A DNA stretch of 23,703 nt from positions 1 to 23,703 of the IMG/VR virus record IMGVR_UViG_3300010316_000051; one strand, written 5' to 3'. Made by a program: the position numbers and the translations under genes. Under the pieces are notes generated by a model. It was given only the letters and a program-made list of their open reading frames with translations. It did no database searches and had not been told where the DNA came from. The DNA is from a virus. This document shows, one piece after another, positions 2,616 through 22,654 of this stretch; within the stretch, counting starts at the first letter, position 1, and each line of letters starts with the position of its first letter.

Positions 2616-2617
2616 TT

Positions 2618-3244: not shown

Positions 3245-3738
3245 TAAAGTATAATGAGTTTTTAAATACTTCAGATATGGACTATATTAATAATATAGCT
3301 ATGTCTAAAGGTTGGATTTGGGGTCACTCATCAGCAGAAAATAATCCAAATTATTTTTGGAGATATGATGATTTAGAAACTGATAAGTTTTTTAACGAAT
3401 ACTTATTCAATAAAATTAAAGAGCTTACTAATGATGAATTAATATTAGAAAGAGTCTATTTAAATGGTCATACAGCATGTAGTCAGGGTACTCCTCATCA
3501 AGACTCAAAAGACCCTAATGGTAGAACTTTTTTAGTATACTGTAACGATGTATGGAAATCTGAGTTTGGTGGAGGTACTGCTTTTGTAGCAGATGATGAA
3601 GTAGCTACTGTAGCTTTTAAACCTAAAGCTGCAATTTACTTTCAGAATAATATCTTTCATCATGCTACACCTTTAAGTAAAAATTTTAAAGGTTTAAGAG
3701 TTACGTTAGCATTTAAAATGAGGTTAGCTAATGTATAG
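3238..3738 (+). CDS. Second 2-oxoglutarate/Fe(II)-dependent oxygenase (166 aa)
   Basis: A second dioxygenase, clearly different in sequence from the one before it. The Fe site is His87-x-Asp89 (PHQDSK) and a distal His in FHHAT (142, or 141); Arg154 in GLRVTLAFK is the expected 2-oxoglutarate-binding Arg. FGGGTAFV (110-117) corresponds to the GG-T/D-L segment of the prolyl 4-hydroxylase superfamily. It starts at GTG with a GGAG upstream and overlaps the previous gene by 7 bases and the next by 8, so it belongs to one translationally coupled unit with them. Short single-domain members like this are frequent in marine phages, usually with unknown substrates. All catalytic residues look intact. 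Confidence 0.85.
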   Translation: MLIKYNEFLNTSDMDYINNIAMSKGWIWGHSSAENNPNYFWRYDDLETDKFFNEYLFNKIKELTNDELILERVYLNGHTACSQGTPHQDSKDPNGRTFLVYCNDVWKSEFGGGTAFVADDEVATVAFKPKAAIYFQNNIFHHATPLSKNFKGLRVTLAFKMRLANV

Positions 3739-4423
3739 TATATTTCATACTTCTCATTGTGGCAGTACTTTATTAAGTGCTTTGTTAAGTAAATCTTTAC
3801 CTTCTTATGCTGAACCTAATTGGTCACATCAGTTATGCAATGTGGATGATAAATTATTTTATATAGAGGCTCACCAACCTAAAGGTAGTATTGTAAAGTA
3901 CTCAAGTGCTTACTGTAGTTTAATGCCTAAACTAAAAGGTAAAAAGATTTTTATCTATAATAAACTTTATCCTCATTTAGTTAAGCATGCTAATAATCAA
4001 AGAGGTTTAGAGTTTCAAAGAGACATAATACTACAAGATTTACATACAAAGTCTACAAAGCATGTTTATCCTCTTGGACAAATAGTTGCAGAAAAAGCTT
4101 ATTTATGGGCAGATAGAATGTATTATGCTTTTGATTCAGAAGATACAATATTTATTGATTGTGAAGAGTTATTTAAAAATAAACACTATGTATTAGAAAA
4201 AATATGTGCTTTTTTAGAAATTCCTTATATATATACTGGTATTGATTATCATGTAAAAGCAGCAGGTTTTTTGCACAAAGATGACCCTATTAACTTAGAC
4301 TTAGTTCTTAAAAAAGATAAAATTAGAATAATAGAACCTTATCGTCCTTTTAATAAAGACTTACTAGATTGGTGTTATGAATCTTATGGTTCTAAAGGTC
4401 TATTATCTTCTTTTATATACTAA
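3731..4423 (+). CDS. Sulfotransferase-like P-loop protein (230 aa)
   Basis: Probably transfers a sulfuryl group from PAPS to an acceptor. The N-terminus IFHTSHCGSTLLSALLS (4-20) is the 5'-phosphosulfate-binding P-loop of the bacterial sulfotransferase superfamily (HCGSTLL/RSGSTLL type), followed by an AEPN segment (28-31) placed as in that family. The second, 3'-phosphate-binding motif is not obvious to me; the KKIFIYNKLYPHLVKHANNQR region (from 71) is the candidate. The start is ATG with GAGG at 3720-3723, overlapping the previous gene by 8 bases. The neighbour downstream resembles APS kinase, which makes PAPS; this supports the call. An unrelated P-loop transferase remains possible. The acceptor cannot be inferred. 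Confidence 0.72.
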   Translation: MYSIFHTSHCGSTLLSALLSKSLPSYAEPNWSHQLCNVDDKLFYIEAHQPKGSIVKYSSAYCSLMPKLKGKKIFIYNKLYPHLVKHANNQRGLEFQRDIILQDLHTKSTKHVYPLGQIVAEKAYLWADRMYYAFDSEDTIFIDCEELFKNKHYVLEKICAFLEIPYIYTGIDYHVKAAGFLHKDDPINLDLVLKKDKIRIIEPYRPFNKDLLDWCYESYGSKGLLSSFIY

Positions 4424-4424
4424 T

Positions 4425-4814
4425 ATGAAAATACTAATATTTGGATTATCAGGTTCAGGAAAAACAACTCTAGCTAATAGATTAAATAAGTATCTAGGTT
4501 ATACAAGAATCAATGCAGATGAAATAAGAGCTTTATGTAATGATTGGGATTTTACCACAGAAGGTAGACTTCGCCAGGCTAAAAGATTAAAAAAATTATC
4601 AGATATACCTAAAGATAGTATAACTGATTTTATAGCACCAACAGCAGAGATGAGAACTATTTTCAATGCTGATATAACAATATGGATGGACACTGTAAGT
4701 AGTAGTAAGTATGAAGATACAGATGTTTTATTTGAAAATCCAATAGATGTAAATTATCATGTAACTGATAAGGATGCAGCTAAGTGGGCAAAATTAATAT
4801 ATGAGGATATTTAA
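4425..4814 (+). CDS. Adenylylsulfate (APS) kinase-like protein, short phage form (129 aa)
   Basis: A P-loop kinase related to CysC, which phosphorylates APS to PAPS. GLSGSGKTT (7-15) is the Walker A as in APS kinase. NADEIRA (30-36), then NDWDFTTEGRLRQAKRL (39-55), occupy the place of the APS-binding GDxxR and DRxENIRR segments, and ITDFIAPTAEMR (66-77) matches the ISPYRxxR segment. The end IWMDTV...KYEDTD...F is the form seen in short phage homologues. At 129 aa it is well below the ~200 aa of CysC, so the activity on APS is inference. An in-frame ATG at 4377 lies inside the sulfotransferase gene and would add an unrelated 16-residue leader; ATG 4425, one base after that gene's stop, is preferred. 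Confidence 0.75.
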   Translation: MKILIFGLSGSGKTTLANRLNKYLGYTRINADEIRALCNDWDFTTEGRLRQAKRLKKLSDIPKDSITDFIAPTAEMRTIFNADITIWMDTVSSSKYEDTDVLFENPIDVNYHVTDKDAAKWAKLIYEDI

Positions 4815-4999
4815 TGGCAACAACTGCAACGCAAGTACATGAAAAGCTACACTCTCATGAAGAGATATGTGCTTTAAGATATGAAGCTATACACATGAGG
4901 TTAGACAAATTAGAACGCTTAATGATGAAGGCTATTTGGTCAGTAATGACAGTGATGTCAGCAGGGATAGGTGCATTATTTTTACTAATCTTAAAATAG
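4814..4999 (+). CDS. XhlA-like membrane protein of the lysis cassette (61 aa)
   Basis: Likely holin-associated membrane protein. The first 38 residues form an amphipathic, charged helix (HSHEEICALRYEAIHMRLDKLERL) and residues about 40-60 form one hydrophobic membrane segment ending in a single Lys. This order, a cytoplasmic coiled coil then a C-terminal membrane helix, is that of the haemolysin XhlA family, which cooperates with a holin in Bacillus PBSX. Similarity is by architecture rather than a diagnostic motif. It starts by TAATG overlap with the kinase-like gene and stands before two more membrane proteins and the endolysin, which supports a lysis role. Confidence 0.7.
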   Translation: MATTATQVHEKLHSHEEICALRYEAIHMRLDKLERLMMKAIWSVMTVMSAGIGALFLLILK

Positions 5000-5018
5000 C
5001 ATTCCACAAATTTCATTC

Positions 5019-5023
5019 AGGAG
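5019..5023 (+). promoter_or_regulatory. Ribosome binding site for the 52-aa membrane protein
   Basis: AGGAG lies 9 bases upstream of ATG 5033. It decides in favour of the frame starting there over the competing longer open frame in the same region. Confidence 0.65.
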
Positions 5024-5032
5024 AATTTATTG

Positions 5033-5191
5033 ATGATTTATTTTATATGGGTGACTGGTACCATAGTTCTATGGGAACTTATTATACGCAGCAAATTGAT
5101 AGTAAGCGTAGACTCTTTGAAGAGGAGCCTAGTAAAAGCAAACCTAAGGTTAAAAAAAGCTTGGAAAAGTCTCATTAGCGAGGAAGTATAA
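5033..5191 (+). CDS. Small single-helix membrane protein in the lysis cassette (52 aa)
   Basis: Not recognised as a named family. The protein opens with a hydrophobic segment, MIYFIWVTGTIVLWELII (residues 1-18), then a basic amphipathic helix (KRSLVKANLRLKKAWKSL) to the end. One membrane helix with a positively charged tail would put the tail in the cytoplasm or against the inner membrane face. Evidence for the gene is an AGGAG with good spacing, a stop that overlaps the next ATG as TAATG (the junction used by both lysis-cassette neighbours), and a sensible membrane-protein composition. A longer open frame (TTG 4936 to 5178) crosses the same bases but has no such signals. It may be a holin partner, antiholin or spanin-like piece; this is inference from position. 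Confidence 0.7.
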   Translation: MIYFIWVTGTIVLWELIIRSKLIVSVDSLKRSLVKANLRLKKAWKSLISEEV

Positions 5192-5583
5192 TGTTAAATC
5201 TTTTAATACCTTTAATTTCTACAGTAATTGACAAAGTTGTTCCTGATAAAGTAGGAGCAGAAAAAGCAAAGCAAGAGATTGAGAAGACTCTTATTGAGAA
5301 TGCGAATCAATTAAATCTTGCACAGATTGACGTAAACAAAGTAGAAGCAGCTAATAGTAATCTTTTTGTAAGTGGTTGGAGACCAGCTATTGGTTGGAGT
5401 TGTGCTTTTGGTTTCTTTTGGTTATTTATAGGGTATCCTATGGCTGACTGGATGCTTTACTTAAATGGTATTGAAACAGAGCTACCTAAGATTGATTCAG
5501 AGATTTTAATGGAGCTTACCTTCGGAATGTTAGGTATGGCAGGTTTAAGAACATTTGAAAAAATAAAGGGTGTAACTAAGTAA
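5191..5583 (+). CDS. Holin, three-helix (Holin_3TMs-like) family (130 aa)
   Basis: Forms lesions in the inner membrane that release or activate the endolysin. An amphipathic N-terminal helix (1-17) and a charged linker are followed by the family's signature NLFVSGWRPAIGWSCAF (57-73), a membrane helix through about residue 82, a short loop (MADWMLYLNGIETELPKID) and a last hydrophobic helix ending GMLGMAGLRTFEKIKG (112-127). The GWRP...GW and LGxxGLRTxEK motifs are characteristic of the three-helix holins found in many alphaproteobacterial phages and gene transfer agents. AGGA at 5181-5184 supports the ATG. It overlaps the preceding small membrane gene and the endolysin gene, both as TAATG. Confidence 0.88.
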   Translation: MLNLLIPLISTVIDKVVPDKVGAEKAKQEIEKTLIENANQLNLAQIDVNKVEAANSNLFVSGWRPAIGWSCAFGFFWLFIGYPMADWMLYLNGIETELPKIDSEILMELTFGMLGMAGLRTFEKIKGVTK

Positions 5584-6017
5584 TGACTCCTCATTTTACA
5601 TTAGCTGAGTTTACAGCAAGTAATACTGCAATAAGATTAGATATAGATAATACACCAACAGAAGAAGCATTAAAGAATCTTCAAATACTTGCAAAAGGAT
5701 TAGAAAATGTTCGTACAAAACTCGATGGTAATGCTATACGAATTTCTAGTGGGTATCGCTGTATTGAACTCAATCGTTCTGTTCGTTCCAAAGATGGTTC
5801 CTATCACGTTAAAGGACTAGCGGCAGATTTTACTTGTCCTGGTTATGGTACAGTTAATGATGTTATGCGTACTATTGCTAACTCAGGCATAGAATTTGAC
5901 CAATTAATTTATGAGTTTAATTCATGGATTCATATAGGATTTCCTGAAGAAGGAAAGAAAGCAAGACGACAAATATTTGCAATAACAAAGAATGGAGTAG
6001 AAGCGTATGACTATTGA
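5583..6017 (+). CDS. Endolysin, M15 family zinc peptidase (144 aa)
   Basis: Cleaves the peptide part of peptidoglycan at host lysis. The single M15-type domain shows the zinc ligands His75 and Asp82 (SYHVKGLAADF) and His117 (SWIHIGF), with Glu111 in LIYEFN as the likely catalytic base; ISSGYRCIELN (54-64) is the conserved substrate-side segment and FTLAEFTAS the usual opening. No signal peptide or cell-wall-binding domain is present, so export depends on the holin. Length is normal for this class. It starts at a TAATG junction with the holin gene and its last codons overlap the next gene by 11 bases. Confidence 0.9.
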   Translation: MTPHFTLAEFTASNTAIRLDIDNTPTEEALKNLQILAKGLENVRTKLDGNAIRISSGYRCIELNRSVRSKDGSYHVKGLAADFTCPGYGTVNDVMRTIANSGIEFDQLIYEFNSWIHIGFPEEGKKARRQIFAITKNGVEAYDY

Positions 6018-6276
6018 TTATCGAGGTGAAAAGTTTTCAGGTTATAACAAACCTAAGAAAACTCCAAGTGGAAGTAAATCTCATGCAGTGTTAGCTAAAG
6101 AAGGAGATAAGGTAAAACTTATTCGCTTTGGTCAACAAGGTGTTAGTGGAGCTGGAGCTAATCCTAAGACTTCTTCTGAAAAAGCAAGACAAAAATCATT
6201 TAAAGCTCGACATGCTAAAAATATTGCTAAAGGCAAAATGTCAGCAGCTTACTGGGCAGATAAAGTAAAATGGTAG
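6007..6276 (+). CDS. Small basic phage protein (89 aa)
   Basis: Function unknown. It has a Lys-rich sequence, a LIRFGQQGVSGAG turn (38-50) and an end (ARHAKNIAKGKMSAAYWADKVKW) that I recognise as recurrent in phage proteins near packaging genes, without an assigned activity. The length and position, between lysis and terminase large subunit, match T7 gp18 (terminase small subunit, also 89 aa), but the sequence does not resemble it and no helix-turn-helix is apparent. GGAG near 5994-5997 supports the start, which lies within the endolysin gene; the stop overlaps the next start. Confidence 0.7.
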   Translation: MTIDYRGEKFSGYNKPKKTPSGSKSHAVLAKEGDKVKLIRFGQQGVSGAGANPKTSSEKARQKSFKARHAKNIAKGKMSAAYWADKVKW

Positions 6277-6452
6277 TTAAAGCGAAAAGTACAGTAAATA
6301 AAGCAGGTAACTATACTAAACCTACTATGCGTAAAAATCTTTTTAATAAGATTAAAGCTGGTAGTAAAGGAGGTAATCCTGGTCAATGGTCTGCTCGTAA
6401 AGCTCAATTACTTGCTAGTGAATATAAAAAAGCAGGTGGAGGTTATAAATAA
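6270..6452 (+). CDS. Small Lys-rich protein (60 aa)
   Basis: Function unknown. It contains 12 Lys and 2 Arg against a single Glu. The C-terminal half carries a GNPGQWSARKAQLLASEY segment (35-52) and ends AGGGYK, a pattern I have met in other phage small proteins; related segments occur in plural copies in such genomes. A strongly basic short protein in the packaging region could bind DNA (inference). It overlaps the preceding gene by 7 bases and shares its stop with the next start as TAATG. Confidence 0.68.
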   Translation: MVVKAKSTVNKAGNYTKPTMRKNLFNKIKAGSKGGNPGQWSARKAQLLASEYKKAGGGYK

Positions 6453-6691
6453 TGGCTCTTGCTAAATCACAGAAAAGCTTAAAAAAATGGACTGCACAAG
6501 AATGGACTACTTCTAGTGGTAAGCCTAGCGAAGGTAAAAGACGTTATTTACCTAAGGCTGCTTGGGATTCTTTAAGTCCTGCAGAAAAGAAAGCTACGAA
6601 TCAAGCTAAAGCAAAAGGAACTAAGCAAGGCAAACAATTTGTAGCTCAACCTAAAAGTGTAGCTAAGAAAGTTAAAAAATACAGAGCATGA
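6452..6691 (+). CDS. Small Lys-rich protein with KKW...KRRYLPKAAW motif (79 aa)
   Basis: Function unknown. It contains 18 Lys and 3 Arg against 4 acidic residues. The core KKWTAQEWTTSSGKPSEGKR (11-30) followed by RYLPKAAWDSLSPAEKKAT (31-49) is a recurrent domain in phage and some bacterial small proteins; the tail KKVKKYRA is strongly basic. It lies immediately before the terminase large subunit and overlaps it as ATGA, so the two are translated together. It might bind nucleic acid or serve as the missing small terminase partner, but no fold evidence supports either. Confidence 0.7.
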   Translation: MALAKSQKSLKKWTAQEWTTSSGKPSEGKRRYLPKAAWDSLSPAEKKATNQAKAKGTKQGKQFVAQPKSVAKKVKKYRA

Positions 6692-8217
6692 GTAAAATAG
6701 ATGAAATAAGACAGGCTGCTGAATCAGACCTCTTAGTCTTTATTAAATTATTAGCTCCACATTTAATGTTAGGTGCTATACATGAAGAGATAATTCAATG
6801 GTGGGGTCGTAGTGAGGCTAAACACAATCAGCTTGTCCTGCTGCCTCGTGGACACATGAAAAGTAAGCTTATAGCATACAGGACTGCTTGGCATATTACT
6901 AAACATCCTGAAACTACAGTACTTTATGTATCTGCTACTGCTGACTTAGCAGAAAAACAATTGTATGCTATTAAACAAATTATTGATTCTAGTATTTATC
7001 GTAGATATTGGTCTGATATGATTCATCCTGAGGAAGGTAAACGAGAAAAGTGGGCAGTTGCTGAGATTGCTGTAGACCATCCTCAACGTAAATTGGAGGG
7101 TATTCGAGATGCAACTTGTAAAGCTGTTGGTCTTACTAGTAATACTACTGGCTTTCATGCTGATGTTGTCATTTTGGACGATATTGTCGTTCCTGGCAAT
7201 GCATATACACAAGATGGTAGAGAAAAAGTAGCTTCAGCTTATTCACAACTAGCTTCTATTGAGAATCCTGGTGCATTTGAATGGGTAGTAGGTACTAGAT
7301 ATCATCCTCGTGATATTTACGATACGATGATTAACATGCAAGAAAGTTTGTATGGAGATGATGGAGAACTAGAATCAGAAGAAGCTGTATATGAACTATT
7401 TCAAAGAGTAGTAGAGACTGATGGTGAGTTCTTATGGGCAAAGCAAACAAGAGCAGATGGTAAACAATTTGGATTTGATTCTAAAGAGTTAGCCCGAATT
7501 AAAGCTAAGTATGTAGATAATACTCAATTCTATGCTCAATACTATAATAATCCTAATAGCACAGAAACAGCAAGGATTGATTCTAATAACTTTCAATATT
7601 ATGAAAGAAGTCTTCTTACAAATAGAGAAGGTGATTGGTATATGAAAGATAGAAAACTTAATGTTTATGCAGCAATTGACTTTGCGTTTTCATTAAGAAA
7701 GAAGGCTGACTTTACAGCACTTGTAACTGTAGGAGTTGACTCTTTAGGAAACTTTTATGTACTTGACATAGATAGATTTAAAACAGAACGGATTGTAGAT
7801 TACTATGACCATATTGTTCAAGCTTGGCAAAAGTGGGGTTTTAGGAAGTTAAGGGCTGAGACTACTGTTGCACAACAAACAATTGTTCGTGAATTAAAAG
7901 AAAGTTATCTTAAACCTAATGGTATTCCTTTGTCAATAGATGAATTTAGACCAACACGAAGTTTAGGTGATAAGTTTGAAAGGGTTAGTGCAGTACTTGA
8001 ACCTAAGTATGATAACTTGCAAATATGGCATTATAAAGGTGGTAATTGTCAAGCATTAGAAGAAGAACTAGTAATGGTTCATCCTCCTCATGATGATATT
8101 AAGGATGCTTTATCTAACGCAATCTCGATTGCTATTATACCTAAACAAAGGTCAGGAGCATTTCAAGTAAACAAAAATGTTATGTCACACTCTCGCTTTG
8201 GCGGTGTATCTTATTAA
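6688..8217 (+). CDS. Terminase large subunit (509 aa)
   Basis: Packages DNA into the prohead by ATP hydrolysis and cuts the concatemer. The ATPase domain has Walker A PRGHMKSK (53-60), the T7 gp19-like PRGHxKS form, Walker B VVILDDIV (160-167), and a GTRYH coupling segment (202-206). The C-terminal RNase H-like nuclease shows its acidic residues at Asp331 (AAIDFAF), Glu391 (RAETT) and Asp473 within HDDIKDALSNAI. Length is usual for the family. The start overlaps the previous gene by 4 bases. No recognisable small subunit is encoded next to it. Confidence 0.95.
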   Translation: MSKIDEIRQAAESDLLVFIKLLAPHLMLGAIHEEIIQWWGRSEAKHNQLVLLPRGHMKSKLIAYRTAWHITKHPETTVLYVSATADLAEKQLYAIKQIIDSSIYRRYWSDMIHPEEGKREKWAVAEIAVDHPQRKLEGIRDATCKAVGLTSNTTGFHADVVILDDIVVPGNAYTQDGREKVASAYSQLASIENPGAFEWVVGTRYHPRDIYDTMINMQESLYGDDGELESEEAVYELFQRVVETDGEFLWAKQTRADGKQFGFDSKELARIKAKYVDNTQFYAQYYNNPNSTETARIDSNNFQYYERSLLTNREGDWYMKDRKLNVYAAIDFAFSLRKKADFTALVTVGVDSLGNFYVLDIDRFKTERIVDYYDHIVQAWQKWGFRKLRAETTVAQQTIVRELKESYLKPNGIPLSIDEFRPTRSLGDKFERVSAVLEPKYDNLQIWHYKGGNCQALEEELVMVHPPHDDIKDALSNAISIAIIPKQRSGAFQVNKNVMSHSRFGGVSY

Positions 8218-8228
8218 AGGAAAAGTAA

Positions 8229-10058
8229 ATGGCAGGTAAAATAGCACAAATTAGACAAATGTTTGAAGAACGAGATGGTTTAGCAAAACAACTATCACAT
8301 CTTTATAATAATTGGTGGATACAACGAAGTGAAAAAGAAGCAGAATGGAGAGAACTTCGGAACTATCTTTTTGCAACAGATACAACTAAAACAACAAACT
8401 CTAAGCTTCCGTGGAAGAATAAGACTACATTACCTAAGCTTACACAGATTAGAGATAACTTGCATGCTAACTATTTAGATGCTCTTTTTCCTAATGACAA
8501 CTGGATGAAGTGGGAAGGTTCTAATCTTAAAGATTCTACTAAAAAGAAACGTAAAGCTATTGAGTCTTATCTTAAAACGAAGTTAAAAGAATCTAACTTT
8601 AGAGAAACTGTTTCACAATTACTTTACGATTATATTGACTATGGAAATACTTTTGGTGAGGTAGTATTTGCTGATGAACGTCATATTGACCCTTTTGATG
8701 GTGAAGAAGTAATTACTTATAGAGGTCCTAAGTTAGTTCGTCTATCTCCTTTTGATATTGTATTTAATCCTACAGCAAGTACATTTGCAGACTCTCCAAA
8801 GTTTACTCGCTATGTTAAATCAGTTGGAGAACTTAAGAAGGACTTTAAATATCGTCCTGACCTTAACTATGATGAAGAAGCTTTTAAGAGTGCTATGGAC
8901 TTCCGTAGAGCAATTACAGCATTTAAACAGGAAGATGTAAACAAAGCAGAAGCTTTTATGGTTGATGGCTTTGGTTCATTGCAAGAGTATTACCAATCAG
9001 GATTAGTTGAGATTATTGAGTTTGAAGGTGATATCTATGATGAGATTAATGATGAGCTTTTAGAAAGACGTATCATTACTATTATTGATAGAAGTTATGT
9101 TATTCGCAATGTTGAGAATCCTTCTTATTTACGAAGAGATAACAAACACCATGTAGGTTGGAGAAGTCGTCCTGATAACCTTTATTGTATGGGACCTTTA
9201 GATAACTTAGTAGGTTTACAGTACCGTGTTGACCATCTAGAGAACTTAAAAGCAGATGCTCTTGATATGACTATTCATCCACCATTAAAAATTAAAGGTG
9301 ATGTAGAACCATTTGAATGGCATCCTGAAGCTACGATTCACATTCCTGAAGATGGCGATGTAGAAGCTATGCCTCCTAATGCAGCAGCGTTCCAAGTAAA
9401 TAATGAGATTGCTGTGTTATTAAGTATTATGGAAGAGATGGCAGGTGCTCCTAAAGAAGCTATGGGTTTCCGAACTCCTGGTGAGAAGACAGCTTTTGAA
9501 GTACAACAATTAAGTAATGCTGCTTCACGGATTTTCCAACATAAAATTAATAAGTTTGAAGTTGAGTTTTTAGAACCAGTACTCAATACAATGTTAGAGA
9601 TGTCTAAACGTAACTTAGATGTTGCAGAGGTAGCTCGAACTATTGATGATGATATTGGTGTACAAGACTTTATGACTATTACTAAAGAAGATATTACTGC
9701 ACGAGGTAGATTGCGTCCAATAGGAGCTCGACATTATGCAGCTAGAGCACAGTTAGTTCAGAACATGATAGGCTTATTTAACAGCCCTATGGGACAATTA
9801 ATCTCTCCGCATATTTCAGCTAAACGATTAGCAGGTATGGTAGAAGAGTATATGGGCTTTGAACAGTATGAGTTTATTAAAGACAATGCAGCTTTATTTG
9901 AACAAGGAGAAACAGCTAAGTTACAACAGCAAATTCAAGCAAGTATTCAAGCAGAGCAAGCACAACCAGGAATGGAAGAGCAGATGTTAGGACAACAAGA
10001 GCAAGCTTTAGGTAATGAAGTAGCACAACTTCCTCCTGAAGAAATGCCTCAAGTATAA
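8229..10058 (+). CDS. Portal (head-tail connector) protein (609 aa)
   Basis: Forms the ring at the packaging vertex through which DNA enters and leaves. The N-terminus has the podoviral layout: a helical region with YNNWWIQRSEKEAEWRELRNYLF (26-48), then LPKLTQIRDNLHANYLDALFPN where the portal core begins, a DYIDYGNTFGEVVF segment, and a long helical stretch before the end. The C-terminal 45 residues are Gln/Glu-rich and low in complexity. It is somewhat longer than T7 gp8 (536 aa). AAGGA at 8217-8221 lies upstream of the ATG. It directly follows the terminase gene and is the last gene before the promoter-containing gap. Confidence 0.92.
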   Translation: MAGKIAQIRQMFEERDGLAKQLSHLYNNWWIQRSEKEAEWRELRNYLFATDTTKTTNSKLPWKNKTTLPKLTQIRDNLHANYLDALFPNDNWMKWEGSNLKDSTKKKRKAIESYLKTKLKESNFRETVSQLLYDYIDYGNTFGEVVFADERHIDPFDGEEVITYRGPKLVRLSPFDIVFNPTASTFADSPKFTRYVKSVGELKKDFKYRPDLNYDEEAFKSAMDFRRAITAFKQEDVNKAEAFMVDGFGSLQEYYQSGLVEIIEFEGDIYDEINDELLERRIITIIDRSYVIRNVENPSYLRRDNKHHVGWRSRPDNLYCMGPLDNLVGLQYRVDHLENLKADALDMTIHPPLKIKGDVEPFEWHPEATIHIPEDGDVEAMPPNAAAFQVNNEIAVLLSIMEEMAGAPKEAMGFRTPGEKTAFEVQQLSNAASRIFQHKINKFEVEFLEPVLNTMLEMSKRNLDVAEVARTIDDDIGVQDFMTITKEDITARGRLRPIGARHYAARAQLVQNMIGLFNSPMGQLISPHISAKRLAGMVEEYMGFEQYEFIKDNAALFEQGETAKLQQQIQASIQAEQAQPGMEEQMLGQQEQALGNEVAQLPPEEMPQV

Positions 10059-10064
10059 TAACAC

Positions 10065-10093
10065 TTGACTTTTTTATAAATCTGTGATATAAT
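10065..10093 (+). promoter_or_regulatory. Sigma70-type promoter
   Basis: TTGACT (10065-10070) and TATAAT (10088-10093) are separated by exactly 17 bases, with an extended -10 TGa directly before TATAAT. Only the last base of the -35 differs from consensus. It lies just behind the portal stop in the longest non-coding gap of the window and points at the scaffold and capsid genes. Transcription would start near 10100, giving a leader of about 80 bases. Confidence 0.8.
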
Positions 10094-10118
10094 ATTATTT
10101 ATAATAAAGTAATTAATA

Positions 10119-10159
10119 ATCTTTAATAATAAATTATATAATTATATCTTTGATAATAA
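10119..10159 (+). repeat. Imperfect direct repeat flanking a palindrome in the leader
   Basis: ATCTTTAATAATAA (10119-10132) recurs as ATCTTTGATAATAA (10146-10159), 13 of 14 bases equal, 27 bases apart. A perfect 12-base palindrome AATTATATAATT (10132-10143) lies between. The whole leader is extremely AT-rich, so chance is a real alternative; a regulatory site is possible because it sits directly downstream of the promoter. Confidence 0.4.
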
Positions 10160-10178
10160 CTAGAAATTTAACTAAACT

Positions 10179-10400
10179 ATGGATTTAAAATCAGAAAAGG
10201 CTAGGAGTCTGACCAAGAATCAGGTCTTTGAAGAACTTAACAAGTATTTTAAAGAGCAGATAGAACTGTCACAAAGAAAATGTATGGATGAGTCTAATTT
10301 TTCTCATCCTGCATGGTCTGAGTTACAAGCCTATCAACTTGGATTACAAAAAGCATTTACAAAGGTTCTAAATCTCATACCTGACCAAGGAGAGCAATAA
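10179..10400 (+). CDS. Conserved small protein preceding the scaffold (73 aa)
   Basis: Function unknown; helical, without cysteine cluster or membrane segment. It has an opening LTKNQVFEELNKYFKEQIEL (11-30), a CMDESNFSHPAWSELQAYQLG segment (35-55) and a short basic/hydrophobic end. Similar proteins stand at this position before the scaffold gene in marine podoviruses as I remember them. It is the first gene behind the promoter at 10065-10093. No Shine-Dalgarno is visible before its ATG, so translation may rely on the unstructured AT-rich leader. The stop overlaps the scaffold start as TAATG. Confidence 0.75.
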   Translation: MDLKSEKARSLTKNQVFEELNKYFKEQIELSQRKCMDESNFSHPAWSELQAYQLGLQKAFTKVLNLIPDQGEQ

Positions 10401-11107
10401 TGAGTGAAGAAACATTAAACGAACAAACAGAGCCTAGTACTAACGAAGCTCCTGTAGTAGGTACCTCAACAACAAAATTTGAAATTCCGACCGAAGCTCA
10501 AGAGTTTGTAGGCGAGGGTAAGAAGTATAAGAGTGCAGAAGATGCTCTTAAATCAGTTCCTCATGCACAACAGCATATATCCACATTAGAACAAGAGTTG
10601 GCTGCTGTAAAAGAAGAACTATCTAAGAGACGAACCACTGAAGAACTTCTTGATGAAATAAAGTCTGGCGTTCAGCCTGAGCGGACTGCACAGTCGCCTG
10701 AATTAGATACAGATAGATTAGAACAATTAGTTTCACAAACTTTAGAAAAGCGTGAGATGCAACAAAGTGCAAAACAAAATGCTTCTTCAGTAGCTAATAA
10801 GTTTACTGAGAAGTTTGGCGATAGTGCACAAACAGCATATGACCAAATTGCTAAAGATAATGGATTAACTGTTCTGCAATTAAATAACTTAGCTGCTACT
10901 TCCCCAAGTGCGGTTCTAAGACTGGCAGGACTAGATGGTAAAACAGCTACTACAATTGCTAAACCAACTGGTACTGTAAATACTCAATCTTTACGAGGAA
11001 ATCCAACAGATGAATTATCTGCTAGAGTTCCACGCGGAGCGAGTACTAAAGACTTAGTAAACGCTTGGAAAGCTGCTGGCGAAAAAGTAAAATCTAAATA
11101 TAACTAA
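10400..11107 (+). CDS. Scaffolding (capsid assembly) protein (235 aa)
   Basis: Guides capsid protein into the prohead and then leaves it. It is acidic and Glu/Gln/Thr-rich at the N-terminus, has a GEGKKYKSAEDALKSVPHAQ segment (39-58) common to podoviral scaffolds, a coiled-coil stretch (STLEQELAAVKEELSKR, 61-77) and a basic C-terminal helix (LVNAWKAAGEKVKSK), the part that usually binds the capsid shell. Position directly upstream of the major capsid gene fits T7 gp9. It is shorter than T7 gp9 (307 aa). Confidence 0.85.
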   Translation: MSEETLNEQTEPSTNEAPVVGTSTTKFEIPTEAQEFVGEGKKYKSAEDALKSVPHAQQHISTLEQELAAVKEELSKRRTTEELLDEIKSGVQPERTAQSPELDTDRLEQLVSQTLEKREMQQSAKQNASSVANKFTEKFGDSAQTAYDQIAKDNGLTVLQLNNLAATSPSAVLRLAGLDGKTATTIAKPTGTVNTQSLRGNPTDELSARVPRGASTKDLVNAWKAAGEKVKSKYN

Positions 11108-11111
11108 GGAG
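11106..11111 (+). promoter_or_regulatory. Strong ribosome binding site of the capsid gene
   Basis: AAGGAG with a 6-base spacer to ATG 11118, overlapping the scaffold stop codon. It is among the strongest Shine-Dalgarno sequences in the window, as expected for the most abundant virion protein. Confidence 0.75.
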
Positions 11112-11117
11112 ACTTAA

Positions 11118-12098
11118 ATGTCACAATTAACAGGAAATACTACAGCTTTTATTGAAGCTCAACAGTATTCTCAGTTCATCCTTGAAAACTTACATGATTA
11201 CCTGTTGCCTGAAGGCATGTGGCGAGATGTATCTGACTTCGGTTCAGGTACAACTTTAAACATCAAAACAGTTGGTTCTGTAACAATTCAAGATGCTGCT
11301 GAAGATACACCTTTAAACTACTCACCTATTGATACAGGTACATTACAACTTACAATTACTGATTATGTTGGTGATGCATGGAAAGTTTCAGATGACTTGC
11401 GTGAAGATGGTTCACAAGTTGATTCATTAATGGCTATGCGTGCTATGGAATCTACTCGTGCTCTTGGTGAAAACCACGAATCACGTTTCTTATCAGTAGC
11501 AAACCTTGCTCAAACAGCAGCAGGTGTAAACTTAGTAAACGGTCGCCCACATCGTTGGGTTGGTTCTGCTGCAGCTAATGCACGCACTGTCACACTACAA
11601 GACTTTATCTCTATGAAACTTGCTTTCGATAAAGCTAATGCTCCTGCTAGTGGTCGTATTGCTATCGTTGACCCAGTTGTTGAAGCTAGTCTAAATAGTA
11701 TCTCTAATTTAGTTAGCGTTTCTAACAACCCAATGTTTGAAGGTATCGTTACTGAAGGTTTTGCAAAAGACCATAAGTTCGTTAAAAACATTTTTGGTTG
11801 GGATATCTACACATCTAACTTCTTACCTACATTGACTGCTGCAGAAGCTATTGATGCTTCAGGCTATGGCTTGACATCTGAAACAGCAGCTATTGGTGAT
11901 AAGGCTAACGTATTTATGTGTATTGCCGATGACTCATGTAAACCAGTTATGCATGCATGGAGACGTGCTCCGCAAACTGAAGGTTGGCGTGATGAAGAAA
12001 CTCGTTCTGATAAGTTCCAAGTAACTTCTCGTTTCGGCTTTGGTGCACAAAGGGTAGATACTCTAGGTGTTATTCTAACTCATCCATCAAATTACTAG
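11118..12098 (+). CDS. Major capsid protein (326 aa)
   Basis: Builds the icosahedral shell, presumably with the HK97 fold. Called from position (scaffold just upstream, decoration and tail tubular genes downstream), length and sequence character: a helical start (FIEAQQYSQFILENLHDYLLPEGMW), then a beta-rich segment with KTVGSVTIQDA (50-60) and a long central helix region. Arginine codons are biased to CGT/CGC (12 of 15), unlike most neighbours, and the gene has an AAGGAG ribosome binding site; both point to very high expression. The end (GFGAQRVDTLGVILTHPSNY) resembles the closing strand of podoviral capsids. Confidence 0.9.
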   Translation: MSQLTGNTTAFIEAQQYSQFILENLHDYLLPEGMWRDVSDFGSGTTLNIKTVGSVTIQDAAEDTPLNYSPIDTGTLQLTITDYVGDAWKVSDDLREDGSQVDSLMAMRAMESTRALGENHESRFLSVANLAQTAAGVNLVNGRPHRWVGSAAANARTVTLQDFISMKLAFDKANAPASGRIAIVDPVVEASLNSISNLVSVSNNPMFEGIVTEGFAKDHKFVKNIFGWDIYTSNFLPTLTAAEAIDASGYGLTSETAAIGDKANVFMCIADDSCKPVMHAWRRAPQTEGWRDEETRSDKFQVTSRFGFGAQRVDTLGVILTHPSNY

Positions 12099-12107
12099 GA
12101 GATTATT

Positions 12108-12590
12108 ATGGGATTTGAAATTGATGCAAAACGTGGCGTTGCAAACCACTACGGAGTTAGAACTACTGATGGTTCATTAGGTGCAGGTGCTTGTGATGAC
12201 TTGTATAAATGGGCTGTATGGGATTTTGATTACAACAATCTTCCAACATATGGTTCTAATAATCTACAACAAGTAGTTCCTGCAAATGCTACTATTGTTT
12301 CTGCAGAATTAATTGTAGATACAGCATTTACATCTACATCTACAACAACTGATTTAGTAGTTGGCTTATATACAGCAGCAGGTGATGCTATTGATGCTGA
12401 TGGTTTAATTGCTGCTACTGATGCTACTCAAACAGCTATTCTTGTGGAAAATAGTCGCATTGTTGGTGCTGGTGATTTAGTTAATAAAGGCATTGGTGCT
12501 GTAGCAGGTGAACTAGTTGTTGCAGGTACTGACACAGACCTATTAACAGGTGCTGGTCGTGTAATTGTGAAATACGTTTACAACAAGTAA
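12108..12590 (+). CDS. Putative capsid decoration / minor head protein (160 aa)
   Basis: Not a family I can name. It is a beta-rich, Ala/Thr/Val/Asp-rich protein without cysteine pairs or membrane segments; it opens GFEIDAKRGVANHYGVR and contains long hydrophobic/polar alternation (VSAELIVDTAFTSTSTTTDLVV). An own ribosome binding site (AGGAG about 10 bases upstream) and placement between the capsid gene and a terminator-like hairpin suggest abundant synthesis together with capsid protein, as for decoration proteins. This role is inference from place and composition. Confidence 0.65.
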   Translation: MGFEIDAKRGVANHYGVRTTDGSLGAGACDDLYKWAVWDFDYNNLPTYGSNNLQQVVPANATIVSAELIVDTAFTSTSTTTDLVVGLYTAAGDAIDADGLIAATDATQTAILVENSRIVGAGDLVNKGIGAVAGELVVAGTDTDLLTGAGRVIVKYVYNK

Positions 12591-12596
12591 GACCTC

Positions 12597-12632
12597 GAAG
12601 GAGGGTACTTTTTCTCGGAAGTGCCTTCCTTC
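12597..12632 (+). terminator. 14-bp hairpin behind capsid/decoration genes, T7 T-phi-like position
   Basis: The arms GAAGGAGGGTACTT (12597-12610) and AAGTGCCTTCCTTC (12619-12632) pair along all 14 positions (two are G-U), with an 8-base loop TTTCTCGG. It starts 6 bases behind the decoration-like gene. The tail is CC followed by TAATTTAATA, not a clean T-run, so it may be an inefficient terminator, an mRNA-stabilising hairpin or an RNase III site. T7 has its late terminator at the corresponding place behind gene 10. Confidence 0.72.
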
Positions 12633-12657
12633 CCTAATTTAATACAAGGAATTTAGA

Positions 12658-13392
12658 ATGACAATTCAACATAATATTATTGCTGACCCTGATATTCATG
12701 AGCCCAAGGGAGTAGCGACTGCTGCAAGCAATAGCATTTATGTAGCAAACGGAAGTGGCTCAGGCGTTTGGACAGTACCAGCACCTTTAGCAGGTTTTCC
12801 ATCAGCTCTTGATGGGCACGTATTTATTGCAGATGGAGCAGGAGGAGGTTCTTGGACCTATCCTGTAGAAGGTCAAGATACTGCTTTAGATGGACAAGTA
12901 TTTATATCTGATGGTGCAGGTGGAGGCTCCTGGGCTTCTCCTACAGACCATCCTATTGCAGAGATATATATTGCAGGAGGTACGACAGTACATACTTTAG
13001 CTGCCGCTAGTGCTTATACTTTACTAAACCCTGTAGGTGAGTGGACAGAAGGAGTTACTAATGTTCTAACAACTACTGCAGGAAGTGGACATATCAATTT
13101 AGAGAAAGCAGGTAATTACTACATTAGTTTTTGGGCTAACTTTACAACAGCCTCTGTTTCTACAGGAAGTGCCTATAAATTTAAGTATAGTTTAGATGGA
13201 GTACTTTCAACAAGATTGTTTCAAATAGCTAAGTTTACTAACGGAGCAGACCAAGTAGCAGTATCCGCATCTGGAATAGTAACAGCAACAGCAGGTCAAG
13301 AACTTGCTATATATGCTGCAGGTGATGGTACTTCAAGTTCTACAAATATAACAGTTACTGAAGCAGGGTTACAAGCCTTGTATTTATCATAG
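12658..13392 (+). CDS. Virion surface / head-fibre-like protein (244 aa)
   Basis: Probably a beta-structured virion appendage. The N-terminus MTIQHNIIADPDIHEPKGV is a recurrent opening of phage structural proteins. Two tandem copies of LDGxVFIxDGAGGGSWxxP lie at about 51-69 and 77-95, a repeat class also present in the fibre at the window start. The C-terminal half (about 100-244) is a beta-rich domain with jelly-roll character like TNF/C1q-type phage tips (GHINLEKAGNYYISFWANF). AAGGA at 12646-12650 supports the start. It follows the hairpin and precedes tail tubular protein A. Confidence 0.68.
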   Translation: MTIQHNIIADPDIHEPKGVATAASNSIYVANGSGSGVWTVPAPLAGFPSALDGHVFIADGAGGGSWTYPVEGQDTALDGQVFISDGAGGGSWASPTDHPIAEIYIAGGTTVHTLAAASAYTLLNPVGEWTEGVTNVLTTTAGSGHINLEKAGNYYISFWANFTTASVSTGSAYKFKYSLDGVLSTRLFQIAKFTNGADQVAVSASGIVTATAGQELAIYAAGDGTSSSTNITVTEAGLQALYLS

Positions 13393-13401
13393 GATATTAT
13401 T

Positions 13402-14181
13402 ATGGCTAAGATGACACTACTTGACATGACCCAAAACATTTTATCTGATATGGATTCAGATGAAGTAAACAGTATCACAGATACTCAAGAGGCTCTTCAA
13501 GTAGCAACAATTATTAAAACTACTTACTATAATATTATTGATGGTAGAGACTTTCCTTTTCTTTATGAAATGTTTCAAGTTAATGCTGTAGGAGGTACTG
13601 CAAGACCTACACACATGAAACTACCTGAAGATATTATTGATTTAAAGTGGATTAAGTACAATAATAAAAAACTATCTGATATTAAAAATAAGTATGAGAA
13701 AATAGAGTATAAGAATCCTGAAGACTTCTTACAAATAACAGATAGTAGAGATAGTTCTGCTTCAGATATCTTAGTTGTACAAGACTCTAGTGATATTCGA
13801 ATTAATGTTTATAATGACAGAGGTCCTAAATACTTTACATCCTTTGATGATGAGAACTTAGTATTTGACGCATACGACTCAGTAAAAGAAACAAACTTAA
13901 CTGAAGATAGTACACAAGGCTATGGTAAGCGTTCCGTTACATTTTCTTTAACAGACTTATTTACTCCTGACCTTCCAGTACAAATGTTTAGTTATTTGCT
14001 TTCAGAAGCTAAGTCAACAGCTTTCTTAACATTAAAACAAATGGCTAACCAAAAAGCTGAACAACAGTCTGTATCACAAAAGCGTAGAATGTCTCAAGAT
14101 GCTTGGCGACTTAAGAATGGTATTACCTATGGAAACTATGGTCGTACTAAAGGAAGTTCTTTTTCTAGGAGAAAAGACTAA
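13402..14181 (+). CDS. Tail tubular protein A (T7 gp11-like adaptor) (259 aa)
   Basis: Ring protein that joins portal and nozzle in short-tailed phages. The opening MTLLDMTQNILSDMDSDEVN (4-23) and the following helix (TQEALQVATIIKTTYYNII) are typical of the gp11-like adaptors. DGRDFPFLYEMFQ and PTHMKLPEDIIDLKWIKYN follow in the usual order, then a beta-rich middle and a basic C-terminal helix. It is longer than T7 gp11 (196 aa). AGGA upstream at 13392-13395; the stop overlaps the next small ORF as TAATG. Confidence 0.88.
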   Translation: MAKMTLLDMTQNILSDMDSDEVNSITDTQEALQVATIIKTTYYNIIDGRDFPFLYEMFQVNAVGGTARPTHMKLPEDIIDLKWIKYNNKKLSDIKNKYEKIEYKNPEDFLQITDSRDSSASDILVVQDSSDIRINVYNDRGPKYFTSFDDENLVFDAYDSVKETNLTEDSTQGYGKRSVTFSLTDLFTPDLPVQMFSYLLSEAKSTAFLTLKQMANQKAEQQSVSQKRRMSQDAWRLKNGITYGNYGRTKGSSFSRRKD

Positions 14182-14297
14182 TGCTAACCTCTAACACCAA
14201 AGCTTTTGTTAATGCTCAACAATATGGAAAAGCAAAAAAGAAAGTAGCTAATCCATTTAAACACCTTCAATCTAAACTTAAACCTAGGAGTAAATAA
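14181..14297 (+). CDS. Tiny basic protein (38 aa)
   Basis: Function unknown. It has 9 Lys and 1 Arg, no acidic residue, and reads MLTSNTKAFVNAQQYGKAKK with a basic remainder ending KPRSK. AGGAG at 14167-14171 with a 9-base spacer and the TAATG junction with the preceding gene support real translation. It is first of three such genes between tail tubular proteins A and B. Confidence 0.6.
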   Translation: MLTSNTKAFVNAQQYGKAKKKVANPFKHLQSKLKPRSK

Positions 14298-14298
14298 C

Positions 14299-14415
14299 AT
14301 GATGTATAAATCACCAGTTGCTAAAATGACAGCGAAAAAGAAACCTAAAAACAAAGATGCAAAAAGTGGTTATGGTAAACCTATGACTATGAAAAAGAAA
14401 GTGATGAAGAAGTAA
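14299..14415 (+). CDS. Tiny, extremely Lys-rich protein (38 aa)
   Basis: Function unknown. It contains 14 Lys in 38 residues against one Asp, and six Met. GGAG at 14287-14290 with an 8-base spacer supports the first of two consecutive ATG codons. The stop overlaps the next start as TAATG. Composition would suit electrostatic binding to DNA or an acidic protein surface; nothing more can be read. Confidence 0.6.
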
Positions 14416-14552
14416 TGCCTTTAAAAAAAGGAAGTTCGAAGAAAGTTATCTCTTCTAACATTAGAACAGAAATAAAACATGGTAAGCCTCAGAAACAAGC
14501 TGTGGCTATTGCCTTATCTAAGGCAGGTAAAAGTAAAAAGAAAAAGGTATAA
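14415..14552 (+). CDS. Small basic protein, KGSSKK...[17 protein letters not shown] type (45 aa)
   Basis: A recurrent phage mini-protein with unknown function. It has 13 Lys and 1 Arg against one Glu. The [20 protein letters not shown] segment (15-34) is the recognisable core, a short helix behind a HGKPQKQA turn, followed by [11 protein letters not shown]. It starts at a TAATG overlap and ends two bases before the next gene. Confidence 0.68.
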
Positions 14553-14554
14553 GC

Positions 14555-14815
14555 ATGAGTGAATTTAAAACACCAGGCAATAAAACAATAGAAGCGTACA
14601 TAGAGCCCTCAACGGCTCATGTGCGTATTCGACTTAAAGAAGGTGGCAAACTTCCTGAGGAACTCTCAGGTGTTTATACTTCTATGGCTATAGCTGAGTT
14701 AGCTATTAATACTTATTTATTAACAAATAAAGAAGTTCAAACTGAAGTAGCAAAGAAAAAGGAAGTTAAAAAAGAGTTTATTAAAGACTTTGTTGCTGAA
14801 CATAAGGACGACTAA
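14555..14815 (+). CDS. Hypothetical protein (86 aa)
   Basis: Not recognised. A short beta-rich N-terminal part (KTIEAYIEPSTAHVRIRLKEG, residues 9-29) is followed by a helix (SMAIAELAINTYLLTN) and a charged C-terminal helix with KKKEVKKEF. No metal-binding, membrane or catalytic pattern is visible. Its stop overlaps the tail tubular protein B start as TAATG, so it is likely translated with it and may be a minor tail or assembly factor (inference). Confidence 0.65.
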   Translation: MSEFKTPGNKTIEAYIEPSTAHVRIRLKEGGKLPEELSGVYTSMAIAELAINTYLLTNKEVQTEVAKKKEVKKEFIKDFVAEHKDD

Positions 14816-17061
14816 TGGCAGCTAAAACTGAAAAGGTCTTTAACACTTTTGTCAAGGGATTGATAACTGAGGCAAGTCCTCTTACATTTCCTGAGAATGC
14901 TTCACTTGATGAAAAGAACTTTGTTCTTAATAGGGATGGTTCGCGTTCTAGACGTTTAGGTTTAGACTATGAAGACCTTTACGAAAAAGTATCTACAGGA
15001 TTTACTGCTGAACAGTTAGCTACAGGCAAACAATCTTTTCATAAATGGGAATCTCCAGGTGGCGATACAACAGTATCTATTGGTGTTGTTCGTATAATTA
15101 ATAAACTTTGGTTTGTTGACTTACTAACAACTAATCCAAGTGGAAATCTATTAAATAGTGGAAGTCCTATTACTATTACAGGATTAAGTACAAGTAATAT
15201 TGAAACTACTTCTATTAATAACAAGTTAATTATTGTCTCTTCAGATTTAGACTATCCAGTAGTTCTATCTTATACTCCTTCTACTGAAGCAGTAACTCAA
15301 ACAAATAAAATTATTTATGTTCGAGATATTTGGGGAGTAGAAGATGGTTTAGACAATGATATTAGACCTGCTACATTATCACAGGCTCATAAGTATAATC
15401 TTCGTAATCAGGGCTGGAATGAATCTATTGTTACAACAAGTGGAGCTGATGCAATTAATCAGACCTTTACTGACTTAGGTGTATATCCAAGTAACTCAGA
15501 TGTATGGACTTTAGGTAAAATAAGTAATCCTGCTAGTGCTAACTATGAAAAGTTTGACCCTGCTACAATGGAAAGAAACTCAACTTCTAAATTCCAAGTA
15601 GCTAGAGGTTCGTTTATAATTGATGCATTCAATCGTGGAGCAGACAGGGTAGGACTATCAGATGCTACTGGACTGCCTACAGACCAAGAGCAAGGTACGA
15701 TTACTACTCTAGCTTCCTATGCACAACGAGTCTTCTACTCAGGTGTATCTTCTAATGTAGTAAATGGTGATGCTTACTCTCCTAACTATTCAGGATATAT
15801 TTTCTTTACTCGAGTTATTCAATCAGATGATGACTTAGGAAAATGTTACCAAGAGGCTGACCCTACTGATGTAGCTATTAGTGACTTAATTGACTCAGAT
15901 GGTGGCTCTATTCAAATCCCTGAAGCAACTAAGATTGTTAAGATTGCAGCTTCTCAAGCGTCTCTTTTAGTATTCTGTGAGAATGGTGTATGGGAAGTTT
16001 ATGGAGATACTGGTGGATTTATTGCAACATCTTTTCAGACATCTAAGATTTCTACGAATGGTATTTTAAATCCGCAATCAGTAGTTAATGTGAATGGTAC
16101 CTTTATTTATTGGTCTAAAGCAGGTATTTATGTACTAACTCCTGAAGCAGCTAGTGGACGATTTAAAGCAGAGTCTATCTCTTTAACTTCTATTCAGTCA
16201 TTGTTTTTAGAGATTCCTGATTTAGCTAAGAATAATTGTAAAGGTTTTTATGATGAAAAAGAAAACCGAGTACGCTGGTTATATAATGACTCAGATACTT
16301 ATACTCAAGTCAATTATCTTAATAAATATAATAAAGAATTAGTTTTAGATTTAACACTGCAAGCTTGGTATGTAAATGAGATATCAGACTTAGCTTCAAA
16401 TTCTCCTTTTGTTGCAGACTACATAGAGGTTCCTGGATATGCTGTAAGCTCTATTGATACTGCTGTAGAGGTAGGAGGAGATGGAGTTATTGTTACTTCA
16501 ACTGACCAAGTAGTTATTACAGAACCATTACTAATTAATCGAAGTGCTTTATTTAGTTTCTTAACTATTAGTGGAACAAGTTTTACTATTGCTAAATATA
16601 AAAATACAGGCTTTGTAGATTGGTTTGAAGAGGATGATACTGGAGCAGACTATAGTAGCTATATTATAACAGGCTATGAACTCTTTGGTGATTTAATGAG
16701 AGAGAAACAAGTCCCTTATATATTCTTTTACTTTAAGAAAACTGAAGATGGCTATACTGACTCAGGCTCAGGACTAATTCTTAATAATCAATCATCTTGT
16801 AAAGTACAAGCTCAATGGAATTGGGCTAATAGTACTAATAGTGGTAAATGGGGACCTGAGTTTCAAGCTTATAGATTAAATAGATTCTATATGCCTTCAG
16901 GAGAATCTGACCCTTTTGATAATGGTGACTCTGTAATTGTTACAAAAAACAAAGTAAGAGGTTCAGGAAAGACTTTAAGTTTAAAGATTACCTCTGAAGC
17001 AGGAAAAGATATGAAACTATTAGGATGGGCACTTCCAGTTACAGCAGCCTCTATTGTATAA
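14815..17061 (+). CDS. Tail tubular protein B (T7 gp12-like nozzle) (748 aa)
   Basis: Forms the tail nozzle beneath the adaptor ring. The opening FNTFVKGLITEASPLTFPEN (9-28) followed by ASLDEKNFVLNRDGSRSRRLGLDYE is characteristic of nozzle proteins of T7-like and marine podoviruses. The body is beta-propeller-like, with motifs such as SLLVFCENGVWEVYGDTGG and YWSKAGIYVLTPEA about 400-455. Length is close to T7 gp12 (794 aa). The last region (KTLSLKITSEAGKDMKLLGWALP) is a typical closing beta unit of this family. Confidence 0.93.
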   Translation: MAAKTEKVFNTFVKGLITEASPLTFPENASLDEKNFVLNRDGSRSRRLGLDYEDLYEKVSTGFTAEQLATGKQSFHKWESPGGDTTVSIGVVRIINKLWFVDLLTTNPSGNLLNSGSPITITGLSTSNIETTSINNKLIIVSSDLDYPVVLSYTPSTEAVTQTNKIIYVRDIWGVEDGLDNDIRPATLSQAHKYNLRNQGWNESIVTTSGADAINQTFTDLGVYPSNSDVWTLGKISNPASANYEKFDPATMERNSTSKFQVARGSFIIDAFNRGADRVGLSDATGLPTDQEQGTITTLASYAQRVFYSGVSSNVVNGDAYSPNYSGYIFFTRVIQSDDDLGKCYQEADPTDVAISDLIDSDGGSIQIPEATKIVKIAASQASLLVFCENGVWEVYGDTGGFIATSFQTSKISTNGILNPQSVVNVNGTFIYWSKAGIYVLTPEAASGRFKAESISLTSIQSLFLEIPDLAKNNCKGFYDEKENRVRWLYNDSDTYTQVNYLNKYNKELVLDLTLQAWYVNEISDLASNSPFVADYIEVPGYAVSSIDTAVEVGGDGVIVTSTDQVVITEPLLINRSALFSFLTISGTSFTIAKYKNTGFVDWFEEDDTGADYSSYIITGYELFGDLMREKQVPYIFFYFKKTEDGYTDSGSGLILNNQSSCKVQAQWNWANSTNSGKWGPEFQAYRLNRFYMPSGESDPFDNGDSVIVTKNKVRGSGKTLSLKITSEAGKDMKLLGWALPVTAASIV

Positions 17062-17370: not shown

Positions 17371-17371
17371 C

Positions 17372-17926: not shown

Positions 17927-17935
17927 GGAGTATTA

Positions 17936-22651: not shown

Positions 22652-22654
22652 CTA

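Follow-up and report, generated by a model that had tools for sequence, protein, structure and literature searches.

Phage T7 carries internal promoters (phi9 and phi10) after its head-tail adaptor gene and ahead of its scaffold and capsid genes, and a stop signal (Tphi) after the capsid gene. The locus described here is arranged in a similar way in a phage of the family Zobellviridae. ICP2, a member of the same family, has a depositor-annotated sigma-70 promoter ahead of scaffold and capsid (NC_015158, 16733-16760). The nearest cultured phages are the Methylophilales phages MEP401 and MEP402 (Zobellviridae), for which a passage of the paper describing them gives a latent period of about 17-20 h; its main text makes no mention of a promoter, RNA polymerase or RNAP (PMC10580990). 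Phage transcripts are said to be often leaderless in a passage of the phage AR9 paper (PMC5312081), and, among the titles and abstract openings listed by searches of an open-access library, none describes a leaderless capsid operon or promoters of Zobellviridae.

Genome setting and capsid cassette

We use the term window for the whole stretch of DNA that was analysed, an entire virus record of 23,703 bases from a marine phage, which is probably a genome fragment. Its genes lie in one direction: holin, endolysin, TerL, portal, a 73-aa gene, a scaffold homologue, major capsid and tail genes. The capsid protein is 75-76% identical to those of MEP401 and MEP402 (75.9% to MEP402) and the portal protein about 70%, and the gene order around the capsid cassette is common to the window and both phages. 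Gene order and capsid and portal homology place the window among the MEP401-like Zobellviridae, with a capsid protein slightly closer to that of the metagenomic phage MW202697 (78.9%) than to those of MEP401/402. The genes of interest and the hairpin that closes the cassette are as follows.

8229-10058, + strand: portal (head-tail adaptor) gene, upstream of the promoter (phrog_332, E 2.5e-98)
10179-10400, + strand: first cassette gene, 73 aa (phrog_8956, E 6.4e-6)
10400-11107, + strand: scaffold gene (phrog_7931, function unknown; homologue annotated scaffold in MEP401/402)
11118-12098, + strand: major capsid gene (phrog_267; 75.9% identical to MEP402)
12108-12590, + strand: fourth cassette gene, 160 aa (phrog_17024, E 9.3e-6)
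12597-12632, + strand: 16-bp hairpin closing the cassette (-23.2 kcal/mol, z -4.75)

Scans of the window against Rfam and for tRNAs gave no match. Elsewhere in the window, at 2618-3738, a 2OG-Fe(II) oxygenase match (phrog_61) adjoins a match to phrog_274, named DNA endonuclease V, and the oxygenase gene itself also matches phrog_274 weakly. Amidoligase and glutamine amidotransferase genes recur among the relatives (L278:1069-3569, L279:1616-4128 and L004:3514-6521); they are annotated in MW202697, fall below the Pfam cut-off in MEP401, and are named in a passage of PMC10580990.

Promoter sequence and intergenic gap

The near-perfect sigma-70 promoter that the sequence-only reading had reported, TTGACT and TATAAT separated by 17 nt with an extended TG, is present exactly where it had been placed. 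Its location 3' of the portal gene and 5' of the 73-aa gene, scaffold and capsid genes also confirms the reported position ahead of scaffold and capsid, the name scaffold resting on the MEP401/402 annotation.

10065-10070, + strand: -35 hexamer TTGACT (TTGAC invariant in 97/97 aligned sites)
10085-10086, + strand: extended -10 TG (17-nt spacer and TG in 97/101 distinct relatives)
10088-10093, + strand: -10 hexamer TATAAT (4/6 positions invariant in 97 aligned sites)
10100-10178, + strand: predicted AT-rich 5' leader of about 79 nt, lacking a Shine-Dalgarno sequence, clade-specific (start placed from the -10 position)

The hexamers at 10065-10093 match the consensus at 11 of 12 positions, and the site has the features of an extended -10 sigma-70 promoter: a TTGACA-like -35, a spacer of 16-18 nt, TG and a TATAAT-like -10. 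It is the sole site with 11 matches among the 53 promoter-like sites found in 1-12000 and the 34 found in 12001-23703. Because such loose sites are not enriched (45.3 and 35.1 expected, respectively), only 10065-10093 stands out. The exact pattern, TTGACW-N14-TGN-TATAAT, has a single match in the window, and not one of 100 shuffles contains it.

The promoter lies in a gap of 120 nt (10059-10178) with a GC content of 12.5%, compared with 35.5% for the whole window. This had been called the only long gap of the window, which does not hold at a 60-aa ORF cut-off, where 14182-14554, between two tail genes, forms a longer gap of 373 nt. The description is right in substance, since three small ORFs can fill 14182-14554 and the next-longest gap otherwise measures 67 nt (12591-12657). 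The three ORFs (14181-14552) are tiny (38, 38 and 45 aa) and rich in lysine codons.

Conservation among relatives

Relatives were gathered by capsid and portal searches of viral contigs, using the best 80 matches per search. Among the matches listed, 229 loci carried the portal gene and the homologue of the 73-aa gene (the small gene), and 101 of these had distinct 120-base surroundings. The promoter with a 17-nt spacer and TG was found in 97 of the 101, and L098, added by pattern, brings the count to 98. The 97 aligned sites were preselected for spacer and TG, which are therefore invariant by construction (the unselected count being 97/101); in addition, TTGAC and four positions of the -10 hexamer are the same in every site, with a strong TTT following the -35 and a strong TA preceding the TG, while bases in mid-spacer drift freely.

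Among the exceptions, L098 has kept promoter and ATG ahead of a broken small gene, and L080 has lost the promoter along with half of the small gene. L072 and L139 have an intact small gene with no such promoter ahead of it. In L072, GAAGGAG stands in place of the promoter, as would be expected if the small gene there were read from upstream mRNA.

Distance from promoter to start codon

The distance from the end of the -10 hexamer to the ATG of the small gene is exactly 6 nt in 78 of the 101 distinct relatives and 6-9 nt in 87. The remaining spacings are 12 nt in one relative and 32-85 nt in nine, including the window (85). Shine-Dalgarno (SD)-like 4-mers precede the small gene in 0/87 relatives with 6-9 nt spacing and precede the capsid gene in all 84 whose capsid start could be read. 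A distance of 6 nt after the -10 hexamer places the usual start point on the A of the AUG. The 6-9 nt spacing and the missing SD predict a leaderless mRNA in most relatives, whose message would probably begin at the start codon itself. The small-gene ATG is probably the true start because the frame is under protein-level selection from the first codons, with an uncorrected pN/pS of 0.45-0.50 over the N-terminal codons (91 distinct ORFs) and 0.45 over codons 2-8. A T directly before this ATG (84/87) was considered as proof of the start point and dropped, as the portal ATG shows the same (62/66).

In MEP401, an SD core of four or more bases precedes 52 of the 67 genes. Both the small gene of its capsid cassette and a DUF3310 gene lie 6 nt behind a promoter of this class and lack an SD. 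The 6-nt spacing ahead of DUF3310, with the same promoter class, is seen at 10759-10794 in MEP401 (L278) and at 11524-11559 in MEP402 (L279), making this gene a second leaderless candidate in these phages, as judged from the spacing and, in MEP401, the missing SD.

A scan of viral contigs with a stricter pattern returned at least 122 distinct sites. Considering ATGs that open ORFs of 40 or more aa among the matches listed, an offset of 6 was commonest (19/49). Twelve of those 19 sites belong to the same small gene, and when its 13 copies are left out, offset 6 accounts for 7/36 and offset 11 for 6, again among the matches listed. The corresponding scan of host genomes returned mostly Clostridia and Saccharibacteria among the matches listed, with offset 6 (5/27) tied with 8 and 9. 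In a second phage group (L329:2062-2107, L366:12512-12550 and similar loci), TTGACTTTT..TATGGTATAAT occurs 5-11 nt before a gene of 215-218 aa. This gene matches the tail protein phrog_10775 in L329 and L366, the two members tested, and L366 carries portal and phrog_267 capsid genes. Going by this spacing, the group may offer a further, independent instance of a structural gene with leaderless mRNA.

Leader in the clade of the window

Since the clade of the window carries a leader, the leaderless reading applies to the relatives and not to the window itself: a leaderless gene would lack an SD and have its -10 some 6-7 nt from the start codon, and here the distance is 85 nt. Leaders (32-85 nt, AT-rich) are confined to this clade. 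In the tree, the window and the six other rows with a leader group in a single clade of nine (SH-aLRT 99, quick method), whose two further members are L039, which is leaderless, and L072, which lacks the promoter; long branches led to the removal of L004, L139 and three of the four outgroups from the tree. The leader was probably derived within the clade by insertion between the -10 box and the gene. We found no stable fold in it. The stretch 10100-10200 folds worse than its shuffles (z +1.72; 198/200 of them fold equally well or better), which would suit an open landing site for ribosomes.

Left ends of short contigs

The cassette is carried by 18 contigs with lengths of up to about 3 kb, and in 17 of them the left end falls on the base preceding the small-gene ATG or further downstream. 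The left end of L199 lies exactly at -1 and those of L061, L268, L026 and L033 at +12 to +19; the short contig L031 begins inside the portal gene, as does the 3.4-kb L053. For six short contigs that gave no small-gene match, the ATG position was estimated from the capsid gene. Among longer contigs, 9/20 left ends lie at or after the base before the ATG and 11/20 upstream (Fisher P 2e-4), a contrast that arises in part because short contigs holding the capsid gene cannot reach far upstream. The long-contig list was made by hand from 98 loci, 20 of which have left ends in the compared stretch; L053 and L182 (analysed as part of a 5.4-kb contig) are in neither list. Under random placement around the capsid gene, P is about 0.008 for 17/18 and about 1.5e-5 for the 5/18 that lie within -1 to +25, a range chosen after seeing the data. 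A literature search with six sample numbers belonging to short contigs gave no match. Their left ends suggest that the short contigs are perhaps transcript assemblies.

RNA polymerase and further promoter copies

Because the window is probably a fragment, the search for a phage RNA polymerase suggested by the sequence-only reading rests on relatives. PF00940, the T7-type RNA polymerase family, was detected in 0/16 related records (three complete GenBank genomes and several fragments) and 0/4 distant records (ICP2, CW02, Pecta and GP100), while the T7 positive control matched with E 9.9e-110; the search covered this one polymerase family, in relatives. A T7-type promoter and polymerase system is thus unsupported, in agreement with what had been proposed. 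With the site kept in 98/101 relatives and PF00940 missing from all 16 related records, host RNA polymerase appears well supported as the best candidate for driving capsid expression, as that reading had held.

The further copies of the promoter that had been anticipated were also found. Nine related genomes, one of them scanned over 40 of 45 kb, each contain 3 to 7 sites of the promoter class above a chosen score, and the capsid site is among them in all nine. Some further sites lie 6-8 nt before an ATG, namely that of a 71-aa gene (MEP401, MEP402 and G005) and those of 177-189-aa ORFs (G001, G003 and G005); some precede an AAGGAG leader; and those inside coding sequence may be chance matches. 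A conserved protein motif probably accounts for a promoter-like match inside the annotated DNA polymerase gene (L278:8052-8080 and L279:8593-8621, with similar matches in G001, G002, G004 and G005). The same promoter class precedes replication-arm genes; as it serves both the replication and the late arm, promoter type alone does not explain late timing.

Hairpin closing the cassette

The gap after the fourth cassette gene folds into a hairpin in all 68 distinct gaps that were folded. Covariation was scored on the 15 of these 68 that align as one type. Pairing holds in 94.6% of the cells of this alignment, with a covariation score of 0.181 as against 0.092 for shuffled and at most 0.072 for slid alignments; two pairs have changes on both sides, no higher than in shuffles (340/500 reach it). 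A run of U after the hairpin is clear in L137, L148 and L150, but many relatives, like the window, have a weak one or none, and a terminator scan of the window did not list 12597-12632. The hairpin may thus be a terminator, an attenuator or a stabiliser of the mRNA 3' end.

Proposed model and alternative explanations

We propose that 10065-10093 would act as a strong extended -10 promoter of the sigma-70 class, read by host RNA polymerase with no phage factor. It would give an internal transcript within the late block, encoding the 73-aa protein, scaffold, major capsid and the 160-aa protein, which the hairpin after the fourth gene would end or trim. Capsid mRNA would then be made in larger amounts than that of neighbouring genes, the effect that phi10 and Tphi have on T7 gene 10. 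Across most of the lineage, the first transcribed base would be the A of the small gene's AUG, giving a leaderless mRNA, with the capsid gene using its SD, and in the clade of the window an AT-rich leader of 32-85 nt would lie between promoter and gene. Built on the observed promoter sequence, its conservation and spacing, the missing SD, the hairpin and the lack of a T7-type polymerase in relatives, this model, including the use and strength that it predicts for the promoter, the start point, leaderless translation and the hairpin's part, is in our view likely as a whole.

A chance promoter-like sequence in AT-rich DNA would fit the GC content of the gap and the loose promoter-like sites, which are as common as in shuffles, yet we rejected it as extremely improbable, given that no shuffle contained the exact pattern and 98/101 distinct relatives conserve the promoter. 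A real promoter may still be gated by a phage factor (anti-sigma, activator or alternative sigma), which would make it a middle or late promoter of the sort known from T4 and phiEco32. Near-consensus promoters are expected to fire at once and capsid genes are expected late, and many MEP401/402 proteins are annotated as hypothetical. But the site fits the simple sigma-70 consensus, and promoters of that kind normally work without a factor; the same motif also precedes replication-arm genes; such gating therefore seems rather unlikely.

Other alternatives accept the promoter and concern the start point or the spacing. Transcription could begin a few bases inside the small-gene ATG, in which case the 73-aa protein would come from read-through mRNA only and the promoter would serve scaffold and capsid alone. 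Of the 18 short contigs, four do have left ends at +12 to +19 and one has its left end at -1, although a few terminal bases may go missing in assembly. With a distance of 6 nt the usual start would be the A, read-through mRNA would equally lack an SD there (0/87), and protein-level selection acts on the small-gene frame right from its opening codons, all of which makes an internal start a decidedly poor prospect. The tight spacing might instead reflect genome compaction only and have nothing to do with leaderless translation. Most relatives have a gap of 36-51 nt, and in the viral scan offset 6 is hardly ahead of offset 11 once this small gene is set aside (7 and 6 of 36, among the matches listed). 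Against compaction, the spacing is exactly 6 nt in 78/101 relatives and recurs at other genes of the same phages, and compaction alone is not expected to strip every SD from this one gene (0/87); we consider it unlikely. A predicted leaderless message in most relatives remains our preferred reading.

More speculatively, and with little confidence, one promoter class may serve both replication and capsid genes, late output being set apart by the mode of translation, with the clade of the window having swapped in an unstructured leader. If true, leaderless capsid mRNA would be favoured by 70S-type initiation when ribosomes and initiation factors run short late in infection. The clades with and without the leader offer a natural comparison, and the near-fixed 6-nt distance between promoter and AUG makes a leaderless major structural operon testable in cultured MEP401 and MEP402. 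More generally, the proposed model is a concrete account of how widespread phages that lack a T7-type RNA polymerase could overproduce capsid, by bracketing the cassette between a host-type promoter and a hairpin.

Comparison with known systems

Within the Zobellviridae, the promoter is a trait of the subgroup of the window, and placement around the capsid gene varies in the family, as distant members differ. In CW02, ICP2, Pecta, Asterion, Vibrio phage 1.264 and GP100 the long gap occurs one gene later, between the small gene and scaffold, and in the corresponding stretch of these six no comparably strong promoter was found, only ICP2 having a fair one. The ICP2 promoter is weaker than that of the window (TTGACT-16-TAGAAT, with no TG) and overlaps the small gene at its end, and the ICP2 scaffold gene has a leader and an SD ahead of it. 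In SIO1 (L287), full-consensus TTGACA-17-TATAAT sites occur on the minus strand at 37512 and 8612, with more than 20 identical bases following the -10 box in both. The 37512 site, which has no TG, lies just after the capsid gene (38505-37573), ahead of the next gene, and was rejected as the same site as that of the window, which lies before the capsid gene.

The likeness to T7 in layout comes with two differences: the promoter here is a host-type sigma-70 sequence and not a phage-polymerase promoter, PF00940 being absent from the 16 related records, and the hairpin lies one gene later than the T7 stop signal. The phage lambda cI gene, transcribed from PRM, provides a leaderless phage mRNA from a host-polymerase promoter, in that case for a lysogeny repressor and not for a structural cassette. 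In Deinococcus-Thermus, according to a passage of PMC12340547, leaderless mRNA likewise arises where a -10 motif stands about 6-7 bp ahead of the ORF; the motif there is TANNNT and concerns nearly a third of D. radiodurans genes, whereas the phages studied here have a full -35 and an extended -10 on few genes. Kasugamycin leaves leaderless transcripts unaffected, according to a passage of PMC5230787. Leaderless phage mRNAs are known generally, and what appears to be new here is a T7-like capsid cassette run by host-type promoters and, on the spacing evidence, leaderless in most of the lineage examined.
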